Assembly: GCF_036373705.1 (NCBI RefSeq)
Contig: NC_089855.1
Coordinates: 5,866,001 to 5,930,000 of the forward strand
Source of the DNA: Amia ocellicauda
Lineage: Eukaryota > Chordata > Actinopteri > Amiiformes > Amiidae
Length of the DNA stretch: 64,000 nt
Direction: 5' to 3'
In this document: in pieces, positions 18,065-41,150 of the stretch
Layout of the letters: each line of letters begins with the position of its first letter
Numbering within the stretch: position 1 is the stretch's first letter
Position numbers and translations under genes: made by a program
The notes under the pieces: model-generated
What the model was told of the DNA's origin: nothing
Databases searched by the model: none
Seen by the model: only the letters and a program-made list of their open reading frames with translations

Positions 18065-18951
18065 CACCGATCAGCCATAACATTATGACCACTGACAGTT
18101 GAAGTGAGTAACACTGATAATCTCGTTATCATGGCACCTGTCAGTGGGTGGGATATATTGGGCAGCAAGTGAACATTTTGTCCTCAAAGTTGATGTGTTA
18201 GAAGCAGGAAAAATGGGCAGCGTAAGGATCTGAGAGACTTTGACAAGGGCCAAATTGTGATGGCTAGACGACTGGGTCAGCGCATCTCCAAAACTGCAGC
18301 TCTTGTGGGGTGTTCCTGGTCTGCCGTGGTCAGAACCTATCAAAAGTGGTCCAAGGAAGGAAAAGCGGTGAACCGGCGACAGGGTCATGGGCGGCCAAGG
18401 CTCATTGATGCACGTGGGGATCGAATGCTGACCCGCATGGTCCGATTCAACGGACGAGCTACTGTAGCTCAAATTGCTGAAAAAGCTAATGCTGGTTTTG
18501 ATAGTAAGGTGTCAGAACACACAGTGCATCGCAGATTGTTGCGTATGGGGTTGCGTAGCCGCAGACCAGTCAGGGTGCCCATGCTGACCCCTGTCCTCTG
18601 CCGAAAGCGCCTACAATGGGCACAAGAGCATCAGAACTGGACCACGGAGCAATGGAAGAAGGTGGCCTGGTCTGATGAATCACGAATTCAAGGTGTTGAC
18701 TTGGCCTCCAAATTCCCCAGATCTCAATCCAATCGAGCATCTGTGGGATGTGCTGGACAAACAAGTCCGATCCATGGAGGCTGCACCTCGGACTTAAAGG
18801 ATCTGCTGCTAACGTCTTGGTGCCAGATACCACAGCACACCTTCAGAGGTCTAGTGGAGTCGATGCCTCTACAGGTCAGGACTGTTTTGGCGGCAAAAGG
18901 GGGACCTACACAATATTAGGCCGGTGGTCATAATGTTATGGCTGATCGGTG
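18065..18951 (+). mobile_element. Internally deleted Tc1/mariner element with intact TIRs
   Basis: Terminal inverted repeats of 28 bp match exactly, starting CACCGATCAGCCATAACATT at 18065. The complementary copy ends at 18951. Each end is flanked by TA (18063-18064 and 18952-18953), the Tc1/mariner target duplication. The 887-bp unit retains both transposase termini but lacks the middle, so it is a non-autonomous deletion derivative. Confidence 0.92.
18257..18919 (+). pseudogene. Truncated Tc1/mariner transposase
   Basis: The N-terminal DNA-binding half is intact: an HTH ([20 protein letters not shown]), the GRPR AT-hook-like motif (GHGRPRL) and a second HTH. The frame reaches the first catalytic Asp (WSDES), then jumps directly to the region around the third acidic residue. 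That region is out of frame here: the nucleotides would read [11 protein letters not shown] in another frame. The segment with the second Asp is deleted. The reading frame is restored near the C-terminus ([12 protein letters not shown]). The protein is non-catalytic but could still bind TIRs if expressed. Confidence 0.85.
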
Positions 18952-20165: not shown

Positions 20166-20280
20166 AAAACACAAAAATTTATCTTCAGATATCATAAATG
20201 ACTGATTGGTTAAAGAAACAATGATTTATATTAAACCTGCTTGAACCAAACAAAATTCTGTGTTTGTTTCCAACCACAGA

Positions 20281-20299
20281 TTTTTTTGTACCTTTGCAG
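20281..20299 (+). promoter_or_regulatory. TLR7: TLR7 main-exon splice acceptor
   Basis: A polypyrimidine tract ending TTTGCAG directly abuts the ATG at 20300. The 12 codons further upstream in the same frame are therefore probably intron. Confidence 0.75.
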
Positions 20300-23200
20300 A
20301 TGGCATGTGAAAGACCTTCAAAGTGGATAATGATCATCCTTCTCTTGGGGTTTCTTACCTCCAAACTCTTGGCCATTGGCTGGTACCCCAAAAGTCTGCC
20401 ATGTAACGTAAGTCTCCAGAAGAACGGGAGTTCTGTAATTGTGGACTGTAATGAAAGAAGACTGACAGAGGTACCAAAAGGGGTGCCAGGAAATGCAACA
20501 AACTTGACAATGACCATCAACCACATCCCCAACATTTACAAGACTTCCTTTGTAGGCCTGGACAACCTCACAGAGATTGATTTCCGCTGCAACTGTGTGC
20601 CTATAAAGATAGGGCCCAAGGACCGCATGTGCACAAAAAGCCTGACTGTGGAGGATGGGAGCTTTTCTTCGCTGAAGAACCTGAGGGCACTGTACTTGGA
20701 TGGCAATCAGCTCTCCAGCATACCTAGGGGACTTCCTCCCAATCTGAAATTGCTCAGCCTCGAAGTGAACAAGATTTTCACCATTCTTAGGCAGAACCTA
20801 TCAGAACTGACAAACGTGGAGATTCTTTATTTCGGACAAAATTGCTACTATCGTAACCCCTGCAATACATCGTTTGAAATCGAGGAAGGCGCATTCCAGC
20901 AACTGGAGAAGCTGACTTTGTTATCGCTCAAATCAAATAACCTATCTTATGTTCCTCATAATCTTCCTTCAAGTCTAAAGGAGCTGTACCTTTATAATAA
21001 CAACATTCAAAGAATATCAGAAGACGATTTTAAAAATATGACCAATCTAGAAACACTGGATCTGAGTGGAAACTGCCCACGATGCTATAATGCCCCCTTC
21101 CCTTGTGACCCCTGTCCGAACGATTCCCCATTGCAGATAGATCTACTAGCATTTCAGACTTTAAAGAAACTAAAAATATTGCGCCTTCACAGTAATTCTC
21201 TACGCAAGGTCCCTTCGGAATGGTTTCAAAACATGAATGAACTTAAGGTTTTAGACCTTTCATCAAACTTTTTGGCGACAGAGATAACTGTGGCCATTTT
21301 CCCCAAATTCCTGCAAAACCTTGAAGAGCTTGACCTTTCCTTCAATTATGAAAGACAGCGGTACCCAGCTTCACTTAGCCTCAGTCAATCATTCTCTTCA
21401 TTAACTTCACTCACAGTCTTGAGGATCAAGGGTTATGTTTTCAAAGAGCTGACAAGCAGAGATTTAGAACCGTTAACGATGCTCCATAACCTGGAAGTAA
21501 TTGATCTTGGCACCAACTTCATAAAACTGGCCAACCTCAATATTTTAAGACAGTTAAGAAGTTTTCAAATAATAAATCTCTCAGACAATAAAATATCCAC
21601 TTCGTCCGAAGAAGGACCGAGTAATGGGCGGTCTTCCCTTTATTCTCCAATGGGAAGCAGTGTCCAGTACAATGATGGAGAAATCCATTATTTCAGGTAT
21701 GATGAATATGCAAGAAGCTGCAAATCGAAGGACAAGGAACCTGGGTCTTTCACCGTGTTTGTGAACAAAAAATGTAGCCAGTTTGGAAAAGCACTAGATA
21801 TTAGTAGGAATAATATATTTTTCATTGATCCCAAAGAATTTATATTACTCGGAGAACTTAGATGTCTCAACCTCTCCGGCAATGCCATGAGTCAGTCATT
21901 AAATGGCTCTGAATTTATTCACTTGACCAATCTGCAGTATTTAGATTTTTCATTCAACCGTCTTGATTTGCTGTATGCTACAGCTTTCCAGGAACTGCAG
22001 AATTTAGTCATTTTAGATATCAGTCATAACAGCCATTACTTTTTATCCGAGGGATTAACACACATGTTAAATTTTACAAATAACTTGCCCAAACTGCAAA
22101 AAATAATGATGAACTACAATAGAATTTCCACATCAACCAACACCGAGCTGGAAAGCAATTCCTTGGAAGTCCTGGAGTTTAAAGGAAACCGTCTAGATGT
22201 TTTATGGAGAGATGGAGACACGCGATACAGTCATTATTTTAAAAAATTATTCCGCTTAAAAGTCCTTGACATCTCTCACAACAATCTTAACTTCATCCCT
22301 GAGCAGGTTTTCCGAGGCATGCCAGACCAGCTCTCTGAGCTCTACTTAAACAATAACAGGCTGAAAACTTTCAACTGGGGGAAGCTACAATTACTCCCTC
22401 ACTTGCAGATCTTAGACCTCAGTAACAACAAGCTAACGACTGTGCCTCGTCAGCTCTCCAACTGTACCAGATCCCTGAAAAATCTTCTCTTGAGCAAGAA
22501 CCAAATCTCCAAACTGACCACGTATTTCCTGAGGGACGCATTTAACCTGAAGTACCTGGACATCAGCTACAACCAAATCAAATACATACAGCAGTCCAGT
22601 TTCCCGGAAAACGTTTTGAATAAATTAGATATGCTACTGCTGCATGGGAATAAGTTCATGTGCACGTGTGACGCAGTCTGGTTCACAGTGTGGATCAACC
22701 AAACGACTGTCAACATTCCTCGACTTGCTACAGACGTCACCTGTGCGGCCCCTGGGGCTCAGAGAGGCCGAAGTGTCATATTTCTGGATCTGCAGACGTG
22801 CCAGCACAACTCCATTTCCATCATACTCTACATCTTTCTAACTTCCTTCATTCTCTGCTTCCTCACGCTGTCAATTTCCAGTCATCTCTTCTTCTGGGAT
22901 GTCTGGTACATCTATCACTTCTGCACTGCCAAGGTGAGGGGCTACCATCCCCTGTCGTCACAAAACACGTGCTATGATGCGTTTGTCGTATACGACAGAA
23001 AGGACGAGGCAGTCTCCGAATGGGTTTTCCACGAGTTAAGATCTCACCTGGAAGAAGAGGGGGACACACACTTCCTGTTGTGCTTGGAAGAGAGAGACTG
23101 GATGCCTGGTTGCCCACTCATTGACAATCTATCCCAGAGCATACAGCAAAGCAGAAAGACTATTTTTGTGCTCACCAACAAATACATCTTGAGTGGGAGT

Positions 23201-23452
23201 TTCAAGACAGCCTTTTACATGGCTCATCAGCGGCTCATGGACGAGAAAGCTGATGTAATTATTCTGATTTTCCTCGAGAAATGCCTGAAGCAGTCCAAAT
23301 ATCTCAGGCTACGTAAAAAACTCTACAGAAGCTCTGTTCTTGAGTGGCCATCAAATCCCCAAGCCAAGCATTTGTTTTGGCTGTGTTTGCGGAATGCAAT
23401 GACTGCAAATGGCCACACACATTATAATCCGTTGTTTCAGGAAACTCTTTAA
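20300..23452 (+). CDS. TLR7: Toll-like receptor 7
   Basis: 1050 residues in one exon; human TLR7 has 1049. It is an endosomal receptor for single-stranded RNA and guanosine-type ligands, signalling through MyD88. In order: signal peptide (MACERPSK...LLLGFLTSKLLAIG), LRR N-cap with LPCNV, the TLR7-type insert FRCNCVPIKIG, about 26 leucine-rich repeats including the LSGNCPRCYNAPFPC insert near residue 260, the Z-loop (about 433-497), a C-terminal cap with CTCDAVWF, a membrane segment (about 838-865) and the TIR domain from about 891 (YDAFVVYD, LCLEERDWMPG, FW box 3). I chose the ATG at 20300, not 20264, because a splice acceptor (TTTTGTACCTTTGCAG) ends at 20299. A non-coding or initiator exon must therefore lie upstream. 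It lies between PRPS2 and the TLR8 genes, as in tetrapods. Confidence 0.96.
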   Translation: MACERPSKWIMIILLLGFLTSKLLAIGWYPKSLPCNVSLQKNGSSVIVDCNERRLTEVPKGVPGNATNLTMTINHIPNIYKTSFVGLDNLTEIDFRCNCVPIKIGPKDRMCTKSLTVEDGSFSSLKNLRALYLDGNQLSSIPRGLPPNLKLLSLEVNKIFTILRQNLSELTNVEILYFGQNCYYRNPCNTSFEIEEGAFQQLEKLTLLSLKSNNLSYVPHNLPSSLKELYLYNNNIQRISEDDFKNMTNLETLDLSGNCPRCYNAPFPCDPCPNDSPLQIDLLAFQTLKKLKILRLHSNSLRKVPSEWFQNMNELKVLDLSSNFLATEITVAIFPKFLQNLEELDLSFNYERQRYPASLSLSQSFSSLTSLTVLRIKGYVFKELTSRDLEPLTMLHNLEVIDLGTNFIKLANLNILRQLRSFQIINLSDNKISTSSEEGPSNGRSSLYSPMGSSVQYNDGEIHYFRYDEYARSCKSKDKEPGSFTVFVNKKCSQFGKALDISRNNIFFIDPKEFILLGELRCLNLSGNAMSQSLNGSEFIHLTNLQYLDFSFNRLDLLYATAFQELQNLVILDISHNSHYFLSEGLTHMLNFTNNLPKLQKIMMNYNRISTSTNTELESNSLEVLEFKGNRLDVLWRDGDTRYSHYFKKLFRLKVLDISHNNLNFIPEQVFRGMPDQLSELYLNNNRLKTFNWGKLQLLPHLQILDLSNNKLTTVPRQLSNCTRSLKNLLLSKNQISKLTTYFLRDAFNLKYLDISYNQIKYIQQSSFPENVLNKLDMLLLHGNKFMCTCDAVWFTVWINQTTVNIPRLATDVTCAAPGAQRGRSVIFLDLQTCQHNSISIILYIFLTSFILCFLTLSISSHLFFWDVWYIYHFCTAKVRGYHPLSSQNTCYDAFVVYDRKDEAVSEWVFHELRSHLEEEGDTHFLLCLEERDWMPGCPLIDNLSQSIQQSRKTIFVLTNKYILSGSFKTAFYMAHQRLMDEKADVIILIFLEKCLKQSKYLRLRKKLYRSSVLEWPSNPQAKHLFWLCLRNAMTANGHTHYNPLFQETL

Positions 23453-25027: not shown

Positions 25028-28000
25028 ATGGTTTTATTCCTTCTTTTAATTTGGTTTACATCCAGCCTTCCTGCACATCGCTGGGTTTCAAGGTATCTGC
25101 CATGTGACGTGAATGTTAGAAATAACACTACTGTGAGCTTTGACTGCAGTTTTAGACGACTGACTGAAGTCCCGGCTGATGTCAACATGAATGCGACAAC
25201 CCTTAATCTGAAAGGAAATCAAATACAACATATTTCTAACACCTCTTTCCGGAATCTGAAGAACCTTAAAGTTCTAACCCTAAACTGGAACAATAAACAC
25301 AAACCTGGCCTCACCATTGCGAAGGACACCTTTGCCGCTTTGGCCAATTTAGAGATTTTACTTCTGGATGGAAATTTGCTCACTGACATACCTACTGGCT
25401 TTCCACCCGGGCTCAAGGTTTTAAGTCTTAATTCAAACAAAATAGCTTCCATTGGATCGGAAAACTTCACTGGTATCCCAAATGTCACAGAGATCAGGAT
25501 TAACAGGAACTGTTACTATCACAATGGTTGTAATGACTCTTTAGCTATACAGAACGGGACCTTCTCACAGCTCACACATTTGTTACGTCTGTCCTTGATT
25601 TTTAACAGGTTGGCCAGGGTACCCCTAGACCTGCCTACATCTTTACAGCTCCTTCGTCTTAGTTTAAATAAAATTGAGCATGTCGATCATCTGGACTTTC
25701 AGAATCTGTCCGAACTCAGGATGCTGGATCTTTCTGGAAACTGTCCAAGGTGCTCCAATGCCCCGTTTCCTTGTGAAACTTGCGAGACTGAGAAAGGCGC
25801 AATAAAGGTGCATCCACTAGCTTTTCATAACCTTACACAGTTGGAAGAACTGCGGCTTTCCGGAAACTCGCTCTTTAAACTCCATGCCTCATGGTTTCAG
25901 AATTGTCCTAAGCTAAAGTATCTGTACCTTTCCTTCAACTCTTTAATCAGTGAAATTGCCACCGGAGAATTTCTTACCGTTTTACCGCACGTCGAAGTTG
26001 TGGACTTGTCATTCAACTTCGATCCTAAGTCCTATCCGAGCAGAATGACACTCTCTCCAAACTTTTCCCAATTACTTTCGTTAAGGACTTTGCATTTTGA
26101 GGGTTATGTATTCAGAAATATCGAGGGCAATGATCTGCAGCCTCTCTTCAACCTCCAAAACCTTTCTGTGTTAAACTTCGGCACAAACTTTCTCCAGTAT
26201 GTTGATCTCACCCTGTTTCAAAACTTTTCTAATCTTTCCTTGATATATCTCTCAGAAAACAGACTTGCATCCCAGTCAAGGAGAACGAACCTGTCTTGCA
26301 GCAGCGAAAATGACGCACACCACATTTTAAGCAGACCACTGTTAAAAGACCGGGCCATTGATAAAAGAGATCAAAACTATATTGTTCATAAAGATGGAGA
26401 CTATCGTTTAAGTCTCCCATTTGTTAAGCCCAAATGTCTTCTTTACGGACCAGCTCTTGATCTCAGTAAAAACAATATATTTTATATCACCCCTGAACTC
26501 TTCGAAGGTCTAAAAAATTTGACATGTCTGAATCTTTCAGTTAATTCTATCGCAGATTCTTTCAACGGCACTGAATTCATTCACTTACCAAATCTCCGGT
26601 ACTTAGACTTGTCTCACAATAAAATAGACCTGGCATATGACTATGCTTTTTCTGAGTTAAGCTATCTGGAAGTGTTGGACATTAGTTACAATCCGCATTA
26701 TTTTTTGGTGGCAGGAGTGATACATAACTTAGGTTTCCTCAAACACCTCCACTTTCTGAAAGTGTTGAACCTCAGCTGGAATGAAATATTTACTTTAAGT
26801 AAAGATAAAGAGATGAGCAGTGAGTCTCTGAACAAGCTAGATTTTCAAGGAAATCGACTGGACATACTATGGAAAGATGATAAAAGATATATAGGACTTT
26901 TCGCAAAGCTGGTGAACTTGCAATATCTTGATCTGTCCTACAATAAGCTCCAGAACATACCATCAGCTGTTTATTATAATTTACCAAAGAACCTGACGCA
27001 TCTCAATTTAAACAACAATAAACTTAAATGTTTTCAGTGGGAGCATCTTATAAACTTATGGCATTTAGAAGTCTTGGATTTAAGCCATAATAACCTGGAA
27101 AATGTGTCTGAAAAGCTCACAAATCACACAAATTCCCTCATAAGGCTTGACCTGAGCTACAATAAGATCGCTCAGCTCTTTGATTATTTTCTTCAGGGCG
27201 CAAGAAGCCTCCATTTTCTATATTTGAATCACAATAATCTGAGACTCTTAAACGCGCATACGTTCCCCTCCGGGCCAGACACCTCCTTGAAAGTCTTATC
27301 CTTAAAAGGAAACCCATTTCAATGCACATGTGAGATATTTGACTTCAAAATGTGGATCAATAAAACTGACATTGAGATACCAAGGCTGGCCACAGATGTC
27401 ACCTGCGCATCACCTGAAAATCGGAAAGGAATGGGTATCATAACTTTTGACCTTCAGGAATGTATCAACGATAGTACATCTGCTGTATTGTTTTTGCTTT
27501 CTACCTTAACTATTGTTCTGATTATTACAGTAGCTATAATGCAGCATTTGTTTTACTGGGATGTCTGGTACATTTTCCATTACTGCAAGGCAAAGATTAA
27601 GGGTTACCGTTACCTGGCATCCACAGACAACATCTACAATGCCTTCATCACGTACGACACTAAAGATCCAGTCGTCACTGACTGGGTCTTCAATCACCTC
27701 CGAGTCCAGCTGGAGGAGAAGGGGGAAAAATTCCTCCCGATTTGCCTGGAGGAACGGGACTGGCACCCAGGGGCCCCTGTCATAGACAACCTGTCTCAGA
27801 GCATCCGGCAAAGTCGGAAGACCGTGTTCGTCCTGACGGAGAGGTATGTGAACAGTGGGAACTTCAGGTTAGCCTTCTACCTGGCCCACCAGAGGCTGCT
27901 GGACGACAACACGGACGTGATCGTGCTGGTGTTGTTGGAGCCCGTCCTGCAGTACTCCCAGTTCTTCAGGTTACGGAAAAGACTGTGTCGGAAGACCATC

Positions 28001-28123
28001 CTAGAGTGGCCGAAGAACCCTCACGCAGAAGACTGGTTCTGGCAGAGTCTCAGAAACGTCATACGGCTAGAAAACCAAGCTATGTACAACAAGCTGTACT
28101 CATGTTACTTTACAAACAAATGA
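25028..28123 (+). CDS. TLR8: Toll-like receptor 8, first tandem copy
   Basis: 1031 residues. It is an endosomal sensor of RNA degradation products that signals through MyD88. Layout: signal peptide MVLFLLLIWFTSSLPA, LRR N-cap (YLPCDVNV), about 26 LRRs including LSGNCPRCSNAPFPC, the Z-loop (about 412-470, with SRRTN and DKRDQ basic stretches where TLR8 is processed in other species), a C-cap with CTCEIFDF, a membrane segment (about 819-842) and TIR from about 870 (YNAFITYD, LCLEERDWHPG, FW). The acceptor AACTGTAG ends at 25000 and an in-frame TGA lies between it and the ATG, so translation starts inside this exon (AAGATGG, strong context). From 27585 to 28099 the sequence matches the second copy base for base. 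AATAAA at 28181. Confidence 0.95.
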   Translation: MVLFLLLIWFTSSLPAHRWVSRYLPCDVNVRNNTTVSFDCSFRRLTEVPADVNMNATTLNLKGNQIQHISNTSFRNLKNLKVLTLNWNNKHKPGLTIAKDTFAALANLEILLLDGNLLTDIPTGFPPGLKVLSLNSNKIASIGSENFTGIPNVTEIRINRNCYYHNGCNDSLAIQNGTFSQLTHLLRLSLIFNRLARVPLDLPTSLQLLRLSLNKIEHVDHLDFQNLSELRMLDLSGNCPRCSNAPFPCETCETEKGAIKVHPLAFHNLTQLEELRLSGNSLFKLHASWFQNCPKLKYLYLSFNSLISEIATGEFLTVLPHVEVVDLSFNFDPKSYPSRMTLSPNFSQLLSLRTLHFEGYVFRNIEGNDLQPLFNLQNLSVLNFGTNFLQYVDLTLFQNFSNLSLIYLSENRLASQSRRTNLSCSSENDAHHILSRPLLKDRAIDKRDQNYIVHKDGDYRLSLPFVKPKCLLYGPALDLSKNNIFYITPELFEGLKNLTCLNLSVNSIADSFNGTEFIHLPNLRYLDLSHNKIDLAYDYAFSELSYLEVLDISYNPHYFLVAGVIHNLGFLKHLHFLKVLNLSWNEIFTLSKDKEMSSESLNKLDFQGNRLDILWKDDKRYIGLFAKLVNLQYLDLSYNKLQNIPSAVYYNLPKNLTHLNLNNNKLKCFQWEHLINLWHLEVLDLSHNNLENVSEKLTNHTNSLIRLDLSYNKIAQLFDYFLQGARSLHFLYLNHNNLRLLNAHTFPSGPDTSLKVLSLKGNPFQCTCEIFDFKMWINKTDIEIPRLATDVTCASPENRKGMGIITFDLQECINDSTSAVLFLLSTLTIVLIITVAIMQHLFYWDVWYIFHYCKAKIKGYRYLASTDNIYNAFITYDTKDPVVTDWVFNHLRVQLEEKGEKFLPICLEERDWHPGAPVIDNLSQSIRQSRKTVFVLTERYVNSGNFRLAFYLAHQRLLDDNTDVIVLVLLEPVLQYSQFFRLRKRLCRKTILEWPKNPHAEDWFWQSLRNVIRLENQAMYNKLYSCYFTNK
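27585..28099 (+). repeat. TLR8: 515-bp block identical to 32866-33380 (TIR-coding)
   Basis: Compared line by line, every base from GCAAGGCAAAGATTAAGGG to AACAAGCTGTAC agrees with the second TLR8 copy at a fixed offset of 5281, with no indel. Identity begins in the codon before KAKIKGYR and stops five codons before the last sense codons. Sequence on both sides is clearly diverged. The block is visibly richer in G and C than the ectodomain DNA. Confidence 0.95.
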
Positions 28124-28180
28124 TTAGTTAGACTGTAAATACAATTCTGCAGAAATGTGATGATTGTAAATGCCTCTTCA

Positions 28181-28186
28181 AATAAA
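28181..28186 (+). terminator. TLR8: Polyadenylation signal of first TLR8
   Basis: AATAAA 58 bases after the stop codon. It would give a very short 3' UTR. No GT-rich element was examined beyond it. Confidence 0.5.
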
Positions 28187-29624
28187 TTCAGTTAAATGGG
28201 TGCAGAACTTCCTGTCTATAGTCCACGTCAAATACCTGGTGAGCAACAAACGATTACAGTACAATAAAACTCAGAGGGTCATAAAAAAAAATCCTTTTTT
28301 AAAACATTTGACACTCTTCCTCATTTCTATGACTTATATTATAAGTAGAGCCAGCTGACCTGTCATGTATTATACTGTAAATAGTATAATATTTTAATAA
28401 ACATTTTCAGTAAAATGTTTATAAATAGATTTACCATTGATACCCTCTCAGCGTCACTGTAGGGTCCCGTCACCAAAAATTGCAGGAGATGAGATCTCTG
28501 ATACGATACGATAGGCCTCTTTTGACATACGTCCTGGACACTGCATCTTGATTCTCTTGCATTATATTGGACTGGCATAGAAACCAGTACTGAGACATTT
28601 CCACCAACAGCCAAAAAATAAAAATAGATGTATAGATTCAACAAGTGAATGTGCTAGATGTAAAGCTACTGAAGCCAAGCTGTCAGCAGTAATTGCACAC
28701 ATCATGCATGTATAAAAGCATTTGTGAGCTCTGATGTTGGCAGGGCGATCTCTGCTGTATTATGTAAATACATGGTGCCAAAGAGGAAGCTTTCCTCACA
28801 CAGTAGCAACATTTAGTGGATGGATTTACCAGCATCCCATACGAACTAATAACAAAAGCAGAAGTTCTGGACACTTATTTCCTGTTTCAGATAATGAGTT
28901 TGTTTTCACTCAAGACCACACTACAGTTTTAGATGTACACTTAAGTTGATGTACTAGTTCTACTGCCCTTTGGATACACACAGCCAATACGTCTAACAAC
29001 TGTTGATTCTAAAATGGTACTGGTAAGTTACAAAATGGTTATTATTTATCTGGTTTATAATTTGTATTGCATAACAACTATGGGTTGTGATTTTATAAAT
29101 ATCAATTAATCAATAGTATTCCTATTTGTCTTTTACACTATAATGTAATAATAATAATCATAATAAACTTTATCTTTGGAAAGTGTGTTTCTCTGATTTG
29201 AAATGACATCACATTTCTCAATCTTAAAATGCCTTCCTGCATTAAAAGCAGAAGCAGCATTGAAATATTCTGTATCCAGTTCTGTAGTTGCAGTGTCCTG
29301 GAATGGAGGTTTGCATTCTTACTGTTTATACAATCCTGTGAAGCTTAGAGCCTTGGTCTTCAAATGGGCGACTGTGGGAAAATCCATCTACAAACATAGT
29401 AGAAAGACATAGTAGTAGTCTTTGTACAGTTGTATATATTTTAAATGTATGTTTATGAATATTGTAATTGATATTATAGTGCAATATGTATATCGCAGAC
29501 AAGATAAAATAATTTGATATATACTAGAGAAATGTTTTGGAACATTCCCCTCATATTTTGGATTGATGCCTTGTTGCTATATAGAGCGATATAGATAGGA
29601 GGATATTTCCATCATCACTAGCAC

Positions 29625-29625
<1 letters not shown>
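28187..29625. other. Spacer between the TLR8 copies (left part)
   Basis: AT-rich. The open frames have no recognisable similarity. A second AATAAA-like cluster occurs near 28264. No gene is recognised. Confidence 0.6.
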
Positions 29626-29684
<59 letters not shown>

Positions 29685-29755
29685 TGTATTTCTTGGCAGA
29701 CGCCCTTATCCAAGGCGACTTACAAAATAAGTGCAAACAAAGTGCAAAGTGCACA
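29626..29755 (-). repeat. L2-type tail with (ATT)n microsatellite
   Basis: About 57 bp of (ATT)n (29628-29684), then TTTCTTGGCAGACGCCCTTATCC and AAGGCGACTTAC, the antisense L2-type tail. A GTGCAAA-rich stretch similar to the 3' UTRs at 19.7 and 38.7 kb follows. Only the 3' end of the element is present. Confidence 0.7.
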
Positions 29756-30302
29756 GTAGGGCTGCATGTAAATAAAAAAGACTGAAAGGTCTAAACACAT
29801 AGATTCAACTGAATCTGCATGTTTGCATTCCCACAAAGCATGATTACTAACACATATACTCCCACCTACAATCATTGTCTGGCTCCGAAATCCTGCATGA
29901 GTCACAAAAGATACTTATGAGATACTGAGATAATCAAAACAGATGGACCCAAATTCGAAAACCAACTCTGTGAAATAAATGCTGCTTGTCTATTGTCAAT
30001 AACAATACAGATTTTTTTTTAATCAATTCTTCCTAGAACAATTCAAAACCTATATTTTGTAACTATATTTTAAACACAGCCACAATAATTACTGTATTAC
30101 CAAAGTACGAAATACATGTACGTAATATAAATAAAACTAGTGACATCACAAGGAAGCTTTCTCAAAGTCCAACGATACAAATGGTCTCACAACTGCCTAA
30201 CTAAATGTTTTCCTTTACTAATGTGCATGTTGTTAAACAGAATATTTATGTTATTGTTTTATAATTTGAAAAGGCCCTTGCAAATGTGTTTGTATCAATC
30301 TA
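29756..30302. other. TLR8: Spacer before second TLR8
   Basis: AT-rich, no gene recognised. The second TLR8 needs an initiator exon, and one may lie here or further upstream. I could not single out a convincing ATG-GT exon. Confidence 0.45.
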
Positions 30303-30320
30303 TATATTTTCTTCCTGTAG

Positions 30321-33300
30321 GTAACTCTTCCCTTCCACTGGCACGGCTCCTTAATCCTGTTTTTTTCTTATTTTGTACACGGAAAACTTGAATATCGTTG
30401 GACTTCGAGAACGCTTCCCTGTGATGTCACTGAAAATAAGAATAACAGTGACATCATTTTTAACTGCAGTGAGCGCCACCTGACGGAAGTGCCACAGGGG
30501 ATTTCTGCGAATGCAACTAAGGTGCTCCTTTTGGAAAACTCAATCCGTAATGTTTCCGTGCAGTCCTTCTTCAACCTCCAAAACCTCACATTAATAAACC
30601 TCAACTGGAATGGCAAAGACAAGGAGGTAAGCATTGCAGACAGAACATTCTCCAGGTTGACAAACCTACAGGAGTTGCATTTGGATGGCAATGGTCTTTG
30701 GAGGATTCCCAAATGGCTCCCACTGGCACTGAAACTCCTCAGTGTGAGAAAAAACAGCATCATCTCTGTTAGGAGAAACTATTTTTCTGAGCTGGACAAT
30801 CTGGAAGAAATCTATCTGGACAAAAACTGCTACTTCTGGAATCCATGCAATAAGTCCTACCACATAGACAATGGAAGTTTTGCCAATCTTACGCAGTTGC
30901 GCATTTTGTCGTTGACCTATAACAACTTAACCACTGTTCCAAAAAACCTGCCGCATTCCTTAGAAGACCTTTACCTCGGATCGAATCAAATACAGCGTGT
31001 CAATGAGCATGATTTCAGCAGCCTGCCAGGACTGCAGATTCTCGACCTCTCGGGTAACTGTCCTCGATGTCACAATGCCCCGTTTCCGTGTGTGCCCTGT
31101 CCCAATCACTCCATCGAGATCCATCCTCTGGCTTTCCACAATCTGACACATCTACAAGAGCTACATCTCTCGGGGAACTCGCTCCGCAGCCTCCCAAGCT
31201 CTTGGTTTGACAGTTTACAGAATCTGCAACAGCTGTTTCTTTCCTTTAATTTTCTAACCAGTGCAATTGCCGAAGGTAACTTTTTGGACAACTTAGCTCA
31301 ACTTAAAAAGATAGACTTGTCCTATAATTACAACTTCAAGGCCTACCCTGAGACCCTCACACTTTCACCCAATTTCTCAAAACTGGAATCCCTTAAAACT
31401 TTTCATATCGCTGGCTATGTTTTCCAAAAAGTATGTGAACGAGATTTAAGTCCACTTTTCAATCTGAAGAATCTCTCTGTGCTGAATTTGGGTACAAACT
31501 TCATCACATCCACAAAGTTGTCAGTGTTTCAGAAATTTGAAAACTTGAAATTGGTATATTTATCAGAAAACAGACTTGCACCTGCACCACACCTAAACGA
31601 TATGATTAATGGCCCAAACACAGGTCTGCGCTGGAAACCCCCAAATCTGGGCTATAGACTATCAAAGGAAAAGGAGTTTGACTATGAATTATCTCATCTA
31701 CTTGTGAAGCATGAGTGCTTTGTCTATGGTAAAGTGTTAGATCTCAGCTCGAATAATATATTTTTCATTTACCCTGAGCAATTCGAAGGTAATGGCAACA
31801 TCTCCTGTCTGAACCTCTCGAAAAACGGTCTCGCGACTGCCTTTAACGGTTCTGAATTCACCCATCTCCCGAGGCTTAAATATCTAGACCTCTCCTTCAA
31901 TAAGATTGATTTAGCCTACGATGCAGCGTTTTCAGAATTAAAGGAACTTGAAGTCCTTGACATCAGTTTTAATCCTCATTATTTTTCTGTGTCAGGAGTG
32001 ACACACAACTTAGGCTTCCTAAAACACCTGGAGTTTCTGAAAGTGCTCAACCTGAGCCAAAATAACATCTTTACTTTAACAAATAAGGAGTTGAGCAGCA
32101 AATCCCTTAAGGAGCTTCATTTTCAAAATAACCAACTACACGTATTATGGAAAGAGAACGACCATTCTTACTGGGGGATTTTCAAAAATCTTTTGAATCT
32201 GTTGCACCTTGACATATCGAATAATAAACTAAAAACTATTCCATCTGGAGTTTACAGCCATTTGCCCCAAAATTTAACTACATTTATTTTAAGTAAAAAT
32301 GAACTGATTAGTTTTGACTGGAAAAAGCTGAAACATTTTAAACACCTCAAGGTTCTGAATCTGGGGGGTAATAAGCTATCTTGTGTGACGGCACACCTCT
32401 CAAATTACTCAAAGACACTCGAACTTCTTGTCTTAAGCAATAATTATATTGCTCGGCTCACCGGTGGTTTTCTCCAGGGTGCAAAATACCTTTTCTACCT
32501 TGATTTAAGTTATAATAAAATGAAAATAATAAACGAGTCAGATTTGTTTACCGGACCAGACAGCAATTTGAAGACCTTCTCATTGAAGGGTAATCCATTT
32601 GACTGTACATGTGATATTTTAGATTTGATTCTGTGGATAAAGAACAATGATATTGACATACCGCTGCTGGCCTCAGATGTCACCTGTGCCATGCCTGCAG
32701 ACAGGAAAGGAAAGAGCATTATTACCTTTGACCTCAAGGAATGTGTTGATGACAGCATAGCAGCCATTATTTCTTTTCTCACCTCCTTTCTTATTTTGTG
32801 CACTATGGCCGTAGCTGTCATGATGCATGTTTTCTACTGGGATGTCTGGTACCTTTACCACTTCAGCAAGGCAAAGATTAAGGGTTACCGTTACCTGGCA
32901 TCCACAGACAACATCTACAATGCCTTCATCACGTACGACACTAAAGATCCAGTCGTCACTGACTGGGTCTTCAATCACCTCCGAGTCCAGCTGGAGGAGA
33001 AGGGGGAAAAATTCCTCCCGATTTGCCTGGAGGAACGGGACTGGCACCCAGGGGCCCCTGTCATAGACAACCTGTCTCAGAGCATCCGGCAAAGTCGGAA
33101 GACCGTGTTCGTCCTGACGGAGAGGTATGTGAACAGTGGGAACTTCAGGTTAGCCTTCTACCTGGCCCACCAGAGGCTGCTGGACGACAACACGGACGTG
33201 ATCGTGCTGGTGTTGTTGGAGCCCGTCCTGCAGTACTCCCAGTTCTTCAGGTTACGGAAAAGACTGTGTCGGAAGACCATCCTAGAGTGGCCGAAGAACC

Positions 33301-33404
33301 CTCACGCAGAAGACTGGTTCTGGCAGAGTCTCAGAAACGTCATACGGCTAGAAAACCAAGCTATGTACAACAAGCTGTACACGAGCTACTTTGCATCTAG
33401 ATAG
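30321..33404 (+). CDS. TLR8: Toll-like receptor 8, second tandem copy (main exon)
   Basis: 1027 codons from the splice acceptor (TTTTCTTCCTGTAG, ending 30320) to TAG. It is the same receptor type as the upstream gene. The exon opens VTLPFHWHGSLILFFSY, a hydrophobic leader, then RTLPCDVTE and CSERHLTEVP of the LRR N-cap. No in-frame ATG occurs before 30489. Starting there would remove the signal peptide and first repeat, and an in-frame TAG lies at the acceptor, so an upstream exon must supply the Met. About 26 LRRs follow with LSGNCPRCHNAPFPC, the Z-loop (about 418-468), the C-cap CTCDILDL, a membrane segment (about 812-835) and TIR from about 865. 32866-33380 matches the first copy exactly. 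No disruption is seen downstream. Confidence 0.92.
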   Translation, partial: VTLPFHWHGSLILFFSYFVHGKLEYRWTSRTLPCDVTENKNNSDIIFNCSERHLTEVPQGISANATKVLLLENSIRNVSVQSFFNLQNLTLINLNWNGKDKEVSIADRTFSRLTNLQELHLDGNGLWRIPKWLPLALKLLSVRKNSIISVRRNYFSELDNLEEIYLDKNCYFWNPCNKSYHIDNGSFANLTQLRILSLTYNNLTTVPKNLPHSLEDLYLGSNQIQRVNEHDFSSLPGLQILDLSGNCPRCHNAPFPCVPCPNHSIEIHPLAFHNLTHLQELHLSGNSLRSLPSSWFDSLQNLQQLFLSFNFLTSAIAEGNFLDNLAQLKKIDLSYNYNFKAYPETLTLSPNFSKLESLKTFHIAGYVFQKVCERDLSPLFNLKNLSVLNLGTNFITSTKLSVFQKFENLKLVYLSENRLAPAPHLNDMINGPNTGLRWKPPNLGYRLSKEKEFDYELSHLLVKHECFVYGKVLDLSSNNIFFIYPEQFEGNGNISCLNLSKNGLATAFNGSEFTHLPRLKYLDLSFNKIDLAYDAAFSELKELEVLDISFNPHYFSVSGVTHNLGFLKHLEFLKVLNLSQNNIFTLTNKELSSKSLKELHFQNNQLHVLWKENDHSYWGIFKNLLNLLHLDISNNKLKTIPSGVYSHLPQNLTTFILSKNELISFDWKKLKHFKHLKVLNLGGNKLSCVTAHLSNYSKTLELLVLSNNYIARLTGGFLQGAKYLFYLDLSYNKMKIINESDLFTGPDSNLKTFSLKGNPFDCTCDILDLILWIKNNDIDIPLLASDVTCAMPADRKGKSIITFDLKECVDDSIAAIISFLTSFLILCTMAVAVMMHVFYWDVWYLYHFSKAKIKGYRYLASTDNIYNAFITYDTKDPVVTDWVFNHLRVQLEEKGEKFLPICLEERDWHPGAPVIDNLSQSIRQSRKTVFVLTERYVNSGNFRLAFYLAHQRLLDDNTDVIVLVLLEPVLQYSQFFRLRKRLCRKTILEWPKNPHAEDWFWQSLRNVIRLENQAMYNKLYTSYFASR
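32866..33380 (+). repeat. TLR8: 515-bp block identical to 27585-28099 (TIR-coding)
   Basis: Partner of the block in the first TLR8. The following codons differ (TSYFASR here, SCYFTNK in the first copy), and the 3' UTRs are unrelated, so the match is not part of a longer segmental duplication. Confidence 0.95.
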
Positions 33405-38886: not shown

Positions 38887-39077
38887 GGAAACACAGAAAA
38901 TAAAGCAGAGATGTACAGCATGAAATTCACAAGTTTAAAACATATCACAATGATGTTATTATCTGTATATGCATGCACATTTTTTAATAAGAAAGCTTTT
39001 CCCCAACACACTGAGAGCTCATAATGACAGACCTTCAATGAATAGCACAGTCAGTGAATAGGATAACATCCTGTTTT

Positions 39078-39456
39078 GTGTGTGTGTGTGTGTGTCAGTG
39101 TGTGTGTGTGTGTGTGTGTCAGTGTCAGTGCGTGTGTGTGTTTGTGTCTGTGTGTGTGTGTGCGTACGTGCGTGTCTGTGTGTGTGTGTGCGTGCGTGTT
39201 GTGTGTGTGTGTGTCAGTGTCAGTGTGTGTGTGTGTGTGTGTCAGTGTGTGTGTCTGTGTGTGTCTCAGTGTCAGTGCATGCGTGTGTGTGTGTGTCTCA
39301 GTGTCAGTGTGTCTGTGTGTGTGTGTTTGTGTGTGTGTCTGTCAGTGTGTGCGTGTGTGTCTCAGTATCAGTGCGTGTGTGTGTGTGTGTGTCAGTGTGT
39401 GTGTGTCAGTGTCAGTGTGTGTGTGTGTGTGTCAGTGTGTCAGTGTGTGTGTGTGT
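39078..39456 (+). repeat. TG-rich complex tandem repeat
   Basis: About 380 bp of (TG)n runs interrupted by TCAG, CGTGCG and TTTG units, with the pattern GTCAGTGTCAGTGTGTG recurring at irregular spacing. Frames across it spell Cys-Val repeats and are artefacts. Confidence 0.9.
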
Positions 39457-41150
39457 TAATGTTCCAGCTGCAGGGTGCAATTTTATATACCGCGATACAT
39501 CTTATGATTCTGAAACACCCTCAGTATAATTTCTATTATTACAAAGTCCCTGCAGGACGGTTAATAAAATAAAGCAGAGGTGTGAAAAGCCAGAGGTCAA
39601 GCACGATAAGAAATACATAAATAAAAGGATAGAAATTAAAGAGACGTCTACTGAATCATAAGAGAAGCTTCACTCTGATCTTCATGGAGAAACACTGAGG
39701 TACTGAATGTAGAATAGTAATCATCCAAAACAATCCAGGACGCTCAGGCACAGAGTCCATCCAAAAGTGTCTGCTTTGCTGAAAATCTACCTACAACTGG
39801 GAAACAATCATGTTTCCTACAAACAAGAAGCTGTAAATCATTGCTGCGCTGTACTGTGTCCTTGGCATTCCTCTGGCAATGAAATCAATTAATCATCATA
39901 TGGAATAAATTAAGTGTATTGAGGATATATGACATCCAAAATGAGAATGAGGTTATTCAGAGGCTTAGCACACCACAGAACATGATTTATAACTCAGAAT
40001 TAGAATTAGAATGTGAGGTACCATGATGGAAGTCTGTTCTGCTTGTATGTATACGCAGCGTTGTGTGCATCATCGTGTCCAGCCCTTACAATGGTTACTG
40101 TAGCTCAGTGTTGTACAGTGTGTGTCCACACTATAGACACTGTAGCAACAGGAAGCTGCAGTTTCTCAATGTGTCTTTGATATTGAGCTCCAAATTATAG
40201 CTTGGCCAGAGCTGGGTTCAGCCCCACCATTTTTTCCCTCCAATCAGATGCAAAGACATACCATGAGCAGGTGTTCAGCTGGGCTTCCATTGGATATAGG
40301 TCTCTTGGGGGGATCGGCTTAAAAAATGTCACATTCATACAGAACTGGGAAGTTATTCGGGCGGTGAAGGCACGGTTTAACCCGAGGGACGGATGTGATT
40401 GGCCACATCTCTATAGAGAAGAACACTATCCAATTCAGTCTGATTTGTATATCATTATTTTGTTGCGTTCACTCATTAAAATCCAAGTGTATAAAATGTG
40501 TAACCAGTTTATTTATTTTTATGTTAATTACTATATATGTTTCTATGTATGTGTATGTATGTATGCATCTATCTGTCTGTCTATGTGTCTGTCTGTTTTT
40601 CTGTCTGTCTGCAGGAGGTAGGAATGTAACAATTCACTTCTAAATAATCAAAATAATACAGTTCATATAGTTTATACTGTATAACCTCCCAATAACACAG
40701 CACAGAGACTCTCCTATTTAAAGAGTCTGGGTGGCACGCCTATCATTTTGTATTTTTAAGACAAATACATCCCAGGTTACTATGTCAGTCTTTTTCATGA
40801 GGCTGGGAGGGACCTTGTGCGCAACAGACTCAAGAGAAAGACATCAAATTGACACAGAAAAGGATCATTACACACATACAAGAAAAATTAGCTATTGTGT
40901 GGTACTTCTACCAATTATCTTTGAAGAGATACAGGAAACCGCCACCAGGTGTCGCCTTTGACGCCATATTGCAGAACAATGGGGGAGCTCAGCGGCATCT
41001 TTGATGAAACGGGGAAATTTATACGGATTTGCTTTATCTTTCTCTAATATATTCGCCAGTAAGAGGGGCTCACATTGTGCGGGGGCTGATAGTGAAGGGA
41101 AAGGTGAATATTGGTGTGCAGGAGTGCATATCGGGGCCTTTTTGTGCGCT
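39457..41150. other. Spacer upstream of TMSB4
   Basis: No gene is recognised. A TATG/CTGT low-complexity stretch occupies 40545-40617. GC content rises towards 41000 where the TMSB4 CpG-rich promoter begins. Confidence 0.55.

Follow-up and report, generated by a model that had tools for sequence, protein, structure and literature searches.

In mammals, gene conversion has been described between TLR1 and TLR6, tandem paralogues of the Toll-like receptor (TLR) family with a diverged N-terminal ectodomain and a homogenised C-terminal end (Kruithof et al. 2007, PMC2077338). According to the parts of that paper available to us, the tract measures about 890-1030 bp in nine species and covers leucine-rich repeats (LRR) 16-19, the transmembrane (TM) segment and most of the TIR domain, with the same codon used for about 96% of shared residues inside the tract and for 56% of those in the N-terminal region. 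TLR1/TLR6 conversion was seen again in equids (PMC10998774), and in birds both GENECONV and codon usage spoke for conversion of TLR1A/TLR1B and TLR2A/TLR2B (Huang et al. 2011, PMC3125219). In the available part of a study in newts, duplication and conversion in mammals and birds are described as mainly restricted to the TLR1 family (PMC4316619). The present analysis concerns two tandem TLR8 genes, TLR8A and TLR8B, in a window of 64,000 nucleotides of the genome of Amia ocellicauda (the whole stretch of DNA analysed; contig NC_089855.1, positions 5,866,001 to 5,930,000). They share an identical TIR-coding block inside otherwise diverged coding regions, and this block was very probably made by recent interlocus gene conversion between them, as judged from the sequences.

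The genes and the shared block are located as follows (positions of the window; the membrane span was placed by eye).

25028..28123, + strand: TLR8A, main coding exon of 1031 amino acids with LRR ectodomain, membrane span and TIR domain.
30321..33404, + strand: TLR8B, main coding exon, an open frame of 1027 amino acids counted from a putative splice acceptor.
27585..28099, + strand: identical block, TLR8A copy, juxtamembrane part and TIR, from the second base of codon 853 to codon 1024 of 1031.
32866..33380, + strand: identical block, TLR8B copy, identical to the TLR8A copy at 515/515 bases.
27554..28099, + strand: highest-scoring segment around the block, 546 nt with 5 mismatches, adding a conserved YWDVWY stretch.

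The first-pass annotation had described the block as free of mismatches and indels, third codon positions included, and as running from just inside the membrane (KAKIKGYR) to a few codons before the stop; both statements were confirmed. All 515 bases agree, a mismatch flanks the block at each end (27584 and 28100 in TLR8A), and in TLR8A it starts within ...CKAKIKGYR, just inside the membrane. Third codon positions agree at 172 of 172 sites in the block and at 40.3% upstream. When only amino acids shared by both genes were counted, Met and Trp excluded, the same codon was used at 165/165 residues in the block versus 180/412 upstream. In 2000 codon shuffles, identical runs reached at most 44 nt over the entire gene, or 30 nt if shuffling was limited to upstream codons, and the segment score of the two genes was 521, compared with null maxima of 57 (300 shuffles) and 44 (200 shuffles).

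On either side of the block the genes differ extensively, as had also been noticed at first reading. The proportion of synonymous differences (pS) drops from 0.754 before the block (839 codons), where synonymous sites are saturated, to 0 within it (171 codons) and is 0.72 in the 7 codons after it; in the tract, synonymous (dS) and nonsynonymous (dN) divergence are both zero, with 113.7 synonymous sites. In line with the first-pass remark on unrelated 3′ UTRs, the 3′ flanks gave no plus-strand blastn match at E 1e-3 in 1500 nt. Searched against the entire genome (988 Mb, 385 contigs), the block was placed in three positions only, the two TLR8 copies at 100% and a TLR9 gene at 64%. The absence of any change at 113.7 synonymous sites gives an upper bound for dS of about 0.026 (95%, Poisson), and at an assumed substitution rate of 5e-9 per site per year the exchange would be less than about 2.6 million years old.

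Both genes could be placed on the TLR8 side, which agrees with the first-pass naming. Pfam matches in TLR8A were LRR_8 (4e-64) and TIR (2e-13), and it scored 682 bits against the human TLR8 ectodomain and 590 bits against TLR7 ectodomain chains. In TLR8B, an LRR ectodomain and a TIR domain were found by Pfam (run on 30489-33401), and the scores against the TLR7 and TLR8 ectodomains were roughly equal (679 and 666 bits). The TLR8B exon begins after a putative splice acceptor AG at 30319-30320, and its start codon would sit in an upstream exon. The two genes are direct tandem copies, 5.3 kb apart on contig C6, downstream of TLR7. When the ectodomains of 20 TLR genes from this genome were placed in a tree, built with a quick method and midpoint-rooted for drawing only, TLR8A and TLR8B were sisters with a Shimodaira-Hasegawa-like approximate likelihood ratio (SH-aLRT) of 99, with TLR7 next to the pair (SH-aLRT 84) and two TLR9-type genes outside; this order places both genes on the TLR8 side. 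Several TLR genes, here and below, were compared by their main coding exon only, and one of the TLR9-type genes is named on a weaker score (458 bits against TLR9, 426 against the TLR7 ectodomain). Because the ectodomains of TLR8A and TLR8B are only 53% identical in amino acids and their synonymous sites are saturated, the split between them is considered old. A short imperfect palindrome (about 77% over 60 bases) was observed at 28380-28438, about 260 bases past the TLR8A stop codon.

The locus resembles mammalian TLR1/TLR6 in its tandem arrangement, in combining a diverged ectodomain with a C-terminal end homogenised at synonymous sites, in the contrast of codon identity inside and outside the tract and in the exclusion of the 3′ flank. 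It differs in that the tract lacks the last LRRs and the TM segment and consists of the juxtamembrane part and TIR only. The avian pairs are similar in that C-terminal tracts are shared by paralogues of one species; as far as the available text of that study goes, they differ in concerning the TLR1 family only, in having longer tracts and, for TLR2A/TLR2B, in including an N-terminal one (PMC3125219). For TLR7 and TLR8, the available part of the TLR1/TLR6 paper states that there was no evidence of conversion, data not shown (PMC2077338). In the window TLR7 carries no tract either, and the exchange is of TLR8 with TLR8.

The neighbouring gene served as the negative control within the cluster.

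20264..23452, + strand: TLR7, upstream neighbour of TLR8A, identified by open reading frame and Pfam; 1057 bits against the TLR7 and 660 against the TLR8 ectodomain (solved chains).

A Pfam search for TIR domains in the 988 Mb genome gave 37 matches, from which 19 gene regions were fetched. After omission of a frame-broken copy (L035) and a truncated copy (L040), the three window genes together with 17 fetched ones formed a set of 20 TLR genes and 190 pairs. The remaining 15 TIR matches, in open frames of 76 to 432 amino acids, lie outside this set and may include TLR genes with an intron-split TIR. For each pair, the best ungapped high-identity segment (+1 for a match, −4 for a mismatch) was compared with 200 codon shuffles. 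Six of the 190 pairs exceeded their own null maximum, three of them by factors of 11.8, 10.1 and 9.3, and three by 1.20, 1.10 and 1.05, which can be within chance for 190 comparisons. The three extreme pairs are all neighbours: TLR8A/TLR8B (5 kb), a TLR4 pair on contig C9 (13 kb between the TIRs) and an inverted pair on contig C11 (29 kb). No shared tract was found between TLR7 and TLR8A or TLR8B (score/null ratios of 0.90 and 0.83), in the TLR9-type sister pair L051/L052 on contig C3, 369 kb apart (0.65; amino-acid identity 37% in the ectodomain and 55% in the TIR), or in a sister pair on contig C21, 8.4 Mb apart (0.95). Two more close pairs (contig C20, 35 kb; contig C9, 11 kb) duplicated recently, are 98% identical and therefore carry no information for this comparison.

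The TLR4 pair, identified by ectodomain matches to TLR4 structures (3e-99 and 2e-91), has a tract of 678 nt with 2 mismatches, in which dS is 0.014 compared with 2.09 before and 1.38 after it. In the C11 pair, the genes of which have opposite orientations, the tract is 507 nt long with 29 mismatches; dS is saturated before it, 0.197 within it and 1.68 after it, with a tract dN of 0.028 and a dN/dS of about 0.14. These values fit an older conversion now diverging under purifying selection. The best solved match of the C11 genes overall is TLR3, with its best stretch C-terminal; since the TLR13 match is the one whose best stretch covers the ectodomain, the pair is labelled TLR11-family-like. Each of the three tracts has diverged codons at both ends, and the three pairs show no match in the 3′ flank (1500 nt; 1117 nt for one C11 gene). 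The tracts overlap in the juxtamembrane part and in the first half of the TIR and differ in their ends: in TLR8 the tract begins past the membrane span, in C11 near the span and in TLR4 well upstream in the ectodomain, the TLR4 tract stopping about 60 codons before the gene end. In reaching the ectodomain, the TLR4 tract is similar to that of mammalian TLR1/TLR6.

Between the two C11 genes lies the frame-broken TLR copy L035 (G000:C11:7627000-7635000). Its identity is 96% (1444 nt) and 97% (515 nt) to segments of one C11 gene and 95% (385 nt) to the other in the TIR. Two TLR copies on contig C20 (L039 and L041; G000:C20:23629000-23635500 and 23663500-23670000), otherwise 96-100% identical, have only 75-80% amino-acid identity at codons about 332-453 of the ectodomain, with the same codon at more than 90% of the shared residues. 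Such mostly amino-acid-changing differences are as expected from diversifying selection or from a donor elsewhere.

The proposal of recent gene conversion, made at the first pass, is thus supported by a dS of zero in the block with high values on both sides, by the sister ectodomains and by the islands in two other close TLR pairs. Several observations weigh against it or narrow it. The evidence comes from one assembly of one genome. Directly upstream of the block, at 27140-27584, the share of identical codons is 0.54 versus 0.415 before, a weak signal (permutation p 0.034, not corrected for the choice of region), and the best upstream window for this share (26699-26816, p 0.06) gives a weak hint of an older, wider conversion. 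The dependence on linkage rests on three close versus two distant sister pairs. TLR7 has no tract at distances of about 5 and 10 kb from the two TLR8 genes, so that close linkage alone is insufficient; this is as expected if sequence similarity is also required.

The higher GC content of the block had been taken as a sign of GC-biased conversion. The observation itself stands: GC is 53% in the block and 40% in the window, and GC at third codon positions (GC3) is 0.75 in the block compared with 0.43-0.48 upstream. As proof of GC-biased conversion the step was rejected, because the TIR is GC-richer in 10 of 10 TLR genes outside close pairs too (steps of 0.02 to 0.34, mean 0.15 GC3), and the TIR exceeds the ectodomain in GC3 in 20 of 20 of the TLR genes compared. 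With a cruder choice of upstream region, one of these ten genes (L027) has a small negative GC step. The GC3 steps of the converted pairs were 0.32, 0.34 and 0.21 (one-sided Mann-Whitney against the ten others, p 0.056); one C21 gene, with a step of 0.34, lies above all three, and three outside genes lie above the TLR4 pair. The step is therefore not diagnostic, and it fits GC-biased conversion without demonstrating it.

Of the other explanations, an assembly artefact, in which the assembler or polisher wrote one TIR into both genes, survives best and is improbable. The perfect identity of the block agrees with such an error, but the window contains no N and lies within a contig of 50.7 Mb, and in the same assembly two other pairs have the same kind of island with 2 and 29 mismatches. 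The 29 mismatches of the C11 tract and its dN/dS argue against an assembly copy error, its dS and dN being unlike those of a copying mistake, and they show that such conversion occurs in this genome.

Two further scenarios are considered very improbable. A recent duplication of the whole gene, with the TIR kept as the original part and the ectodomain and both flanks later replaced in one copy, would formally yield the same mosaic. It requires that sequence from an old sister gene replaced the upstream part and, in a separate event, the last 7 codons with the 3′ flank, and would be needed in three pairs, so that copying of a single short block is simpler. Unequal crossing-over, as improbable as this replacement, is suggested by the direct tandem arrangement of TLR8A and TLR8B; since one crossover swaps everything on one side, two exchanges would be needed for divergence on both sides, and in the inverted C11 pair a crossover would yield an inversion, not a shared island. 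Purifying selection alone on two old paralogues can practically be dismissed: the TIR is generally better conserved (amino-acid identity in the C21 pair is 0.78 in the TIR and 0.57 in the ectodomain), but protein constraint cannot explain the codon identity, because block and TLR7 use the same codon at only 30/88 shared residues with no excess, the distant sister pairs have no island, and the invariant third positions and synonymous sites refute it, barring strong constraint on the DNA itself.

Under gene conversion, an ectopic (interlocus) event, recent on the time scale of these genes, would have copied about 515-546 bp of TIR-coding DNA between the tandem TLR8 genes; nothing in the flanks or in GC content points to either TLR8A or TLR8B as the donor. 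Slow evolution of the TIR-coding part may preserve the similarity that strand exchange requires between neighbouring genes separated by less than about 30 kb, and the ectodomains may be too diverged to exchange or may lose out when exchanged. Each conversion would reset the similarity, and the signalling end could thereby be renewed again and again as the divergence of the sensing ends continues. Selection may favour a common TIR, or may only remove conversions of the ectodomain. At 14 positions which we take to line the ligand pocket of human TLR8, both genes retain most residues and differ at four (TLR8A/TLR8B: 346 F/Y, 348 F/Y, 520 S/A, 574 I/T). Given these four differences, a differing ligand preference with equal signalling is plausible.

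Away from the TLR genes, the window contains an open frame with a match to a Tc3-type transposase helix-turn-helix (18257-18919, upstream of TLR7) and a low-complexity array of overlapping direct repeats, mostly at 8-14 base spacing (39037-39504). Two short peptide patterns from the TLR8A/TLR8B/TLR7 alignment gave 58 matches in prokaryote contigs and 50 in viral contigs, none confirmed as a relative, in a scan for stray vertebrate DNA only.

Duplicated TLR8 genes are known from salmon, carp and cod (PMC11524855, PMC4850435), and trout TLR8a1/a2 are named in a reference of PMC7721727. These fish share with Amia the presence of several TLR8 copies, and the selected sites in cod were reported mainly in ectodomain loops in the available text (PMC4850435). 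The main text of the cod paper contains neither 'gene conversion' nor 'recombination'. In the accessible parts of the fish TLR papers, 'gene conversion' occurred only in reference titles, for other gene families or in a general statement, and no report of conversion in fish TLR8, TLR4 or TLR11-family genes was found in the available open-access literature, which does not prove that none exists. Signalling-end conversion of TLR genes is known in mammals and birds, and the fish TLR8, TLR4 and TLR11-family-like cases are apparently new. According to the available text, the vertebrate TLR tree of the cod study was built on TM, linker and TIR since full-length sequences could not be aligned (PMC4850435), and the same part was used in the goby genome paper (PMC6988351). 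It is this very part that was exchanged between TLR8A and TLR8B, and if such exchange is common in fish, trees of this kind would mix gene history with exchange history.

The likely effect is that two receptors, possibly with different ligands, act on the same adaptor through an identical TIR. More widely, we tentatively propose, at somewhat less than even confidence, that concerted evolution affects the signalling ends of adjacent TLR paralogues in at least three families (TLR8, TLR4 and the TLR11 family) of this genome, and perhaps of ray-finned fish as a whole, with the sensing ends diverging to saturation. If true, the head of a receptor has a genealogy distinct from that of its tail, and what is seen in fish TLR trees on TM, linker and TIR is partly the history of exchange, not that of the genes. 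Three further families in one genome would make signalling-end conversion a more general regime for neighbouring TLRs, and with such pairs one could test directly how the ligands of paralogous receptors become more diverse while coupling to the adaptor is kept.

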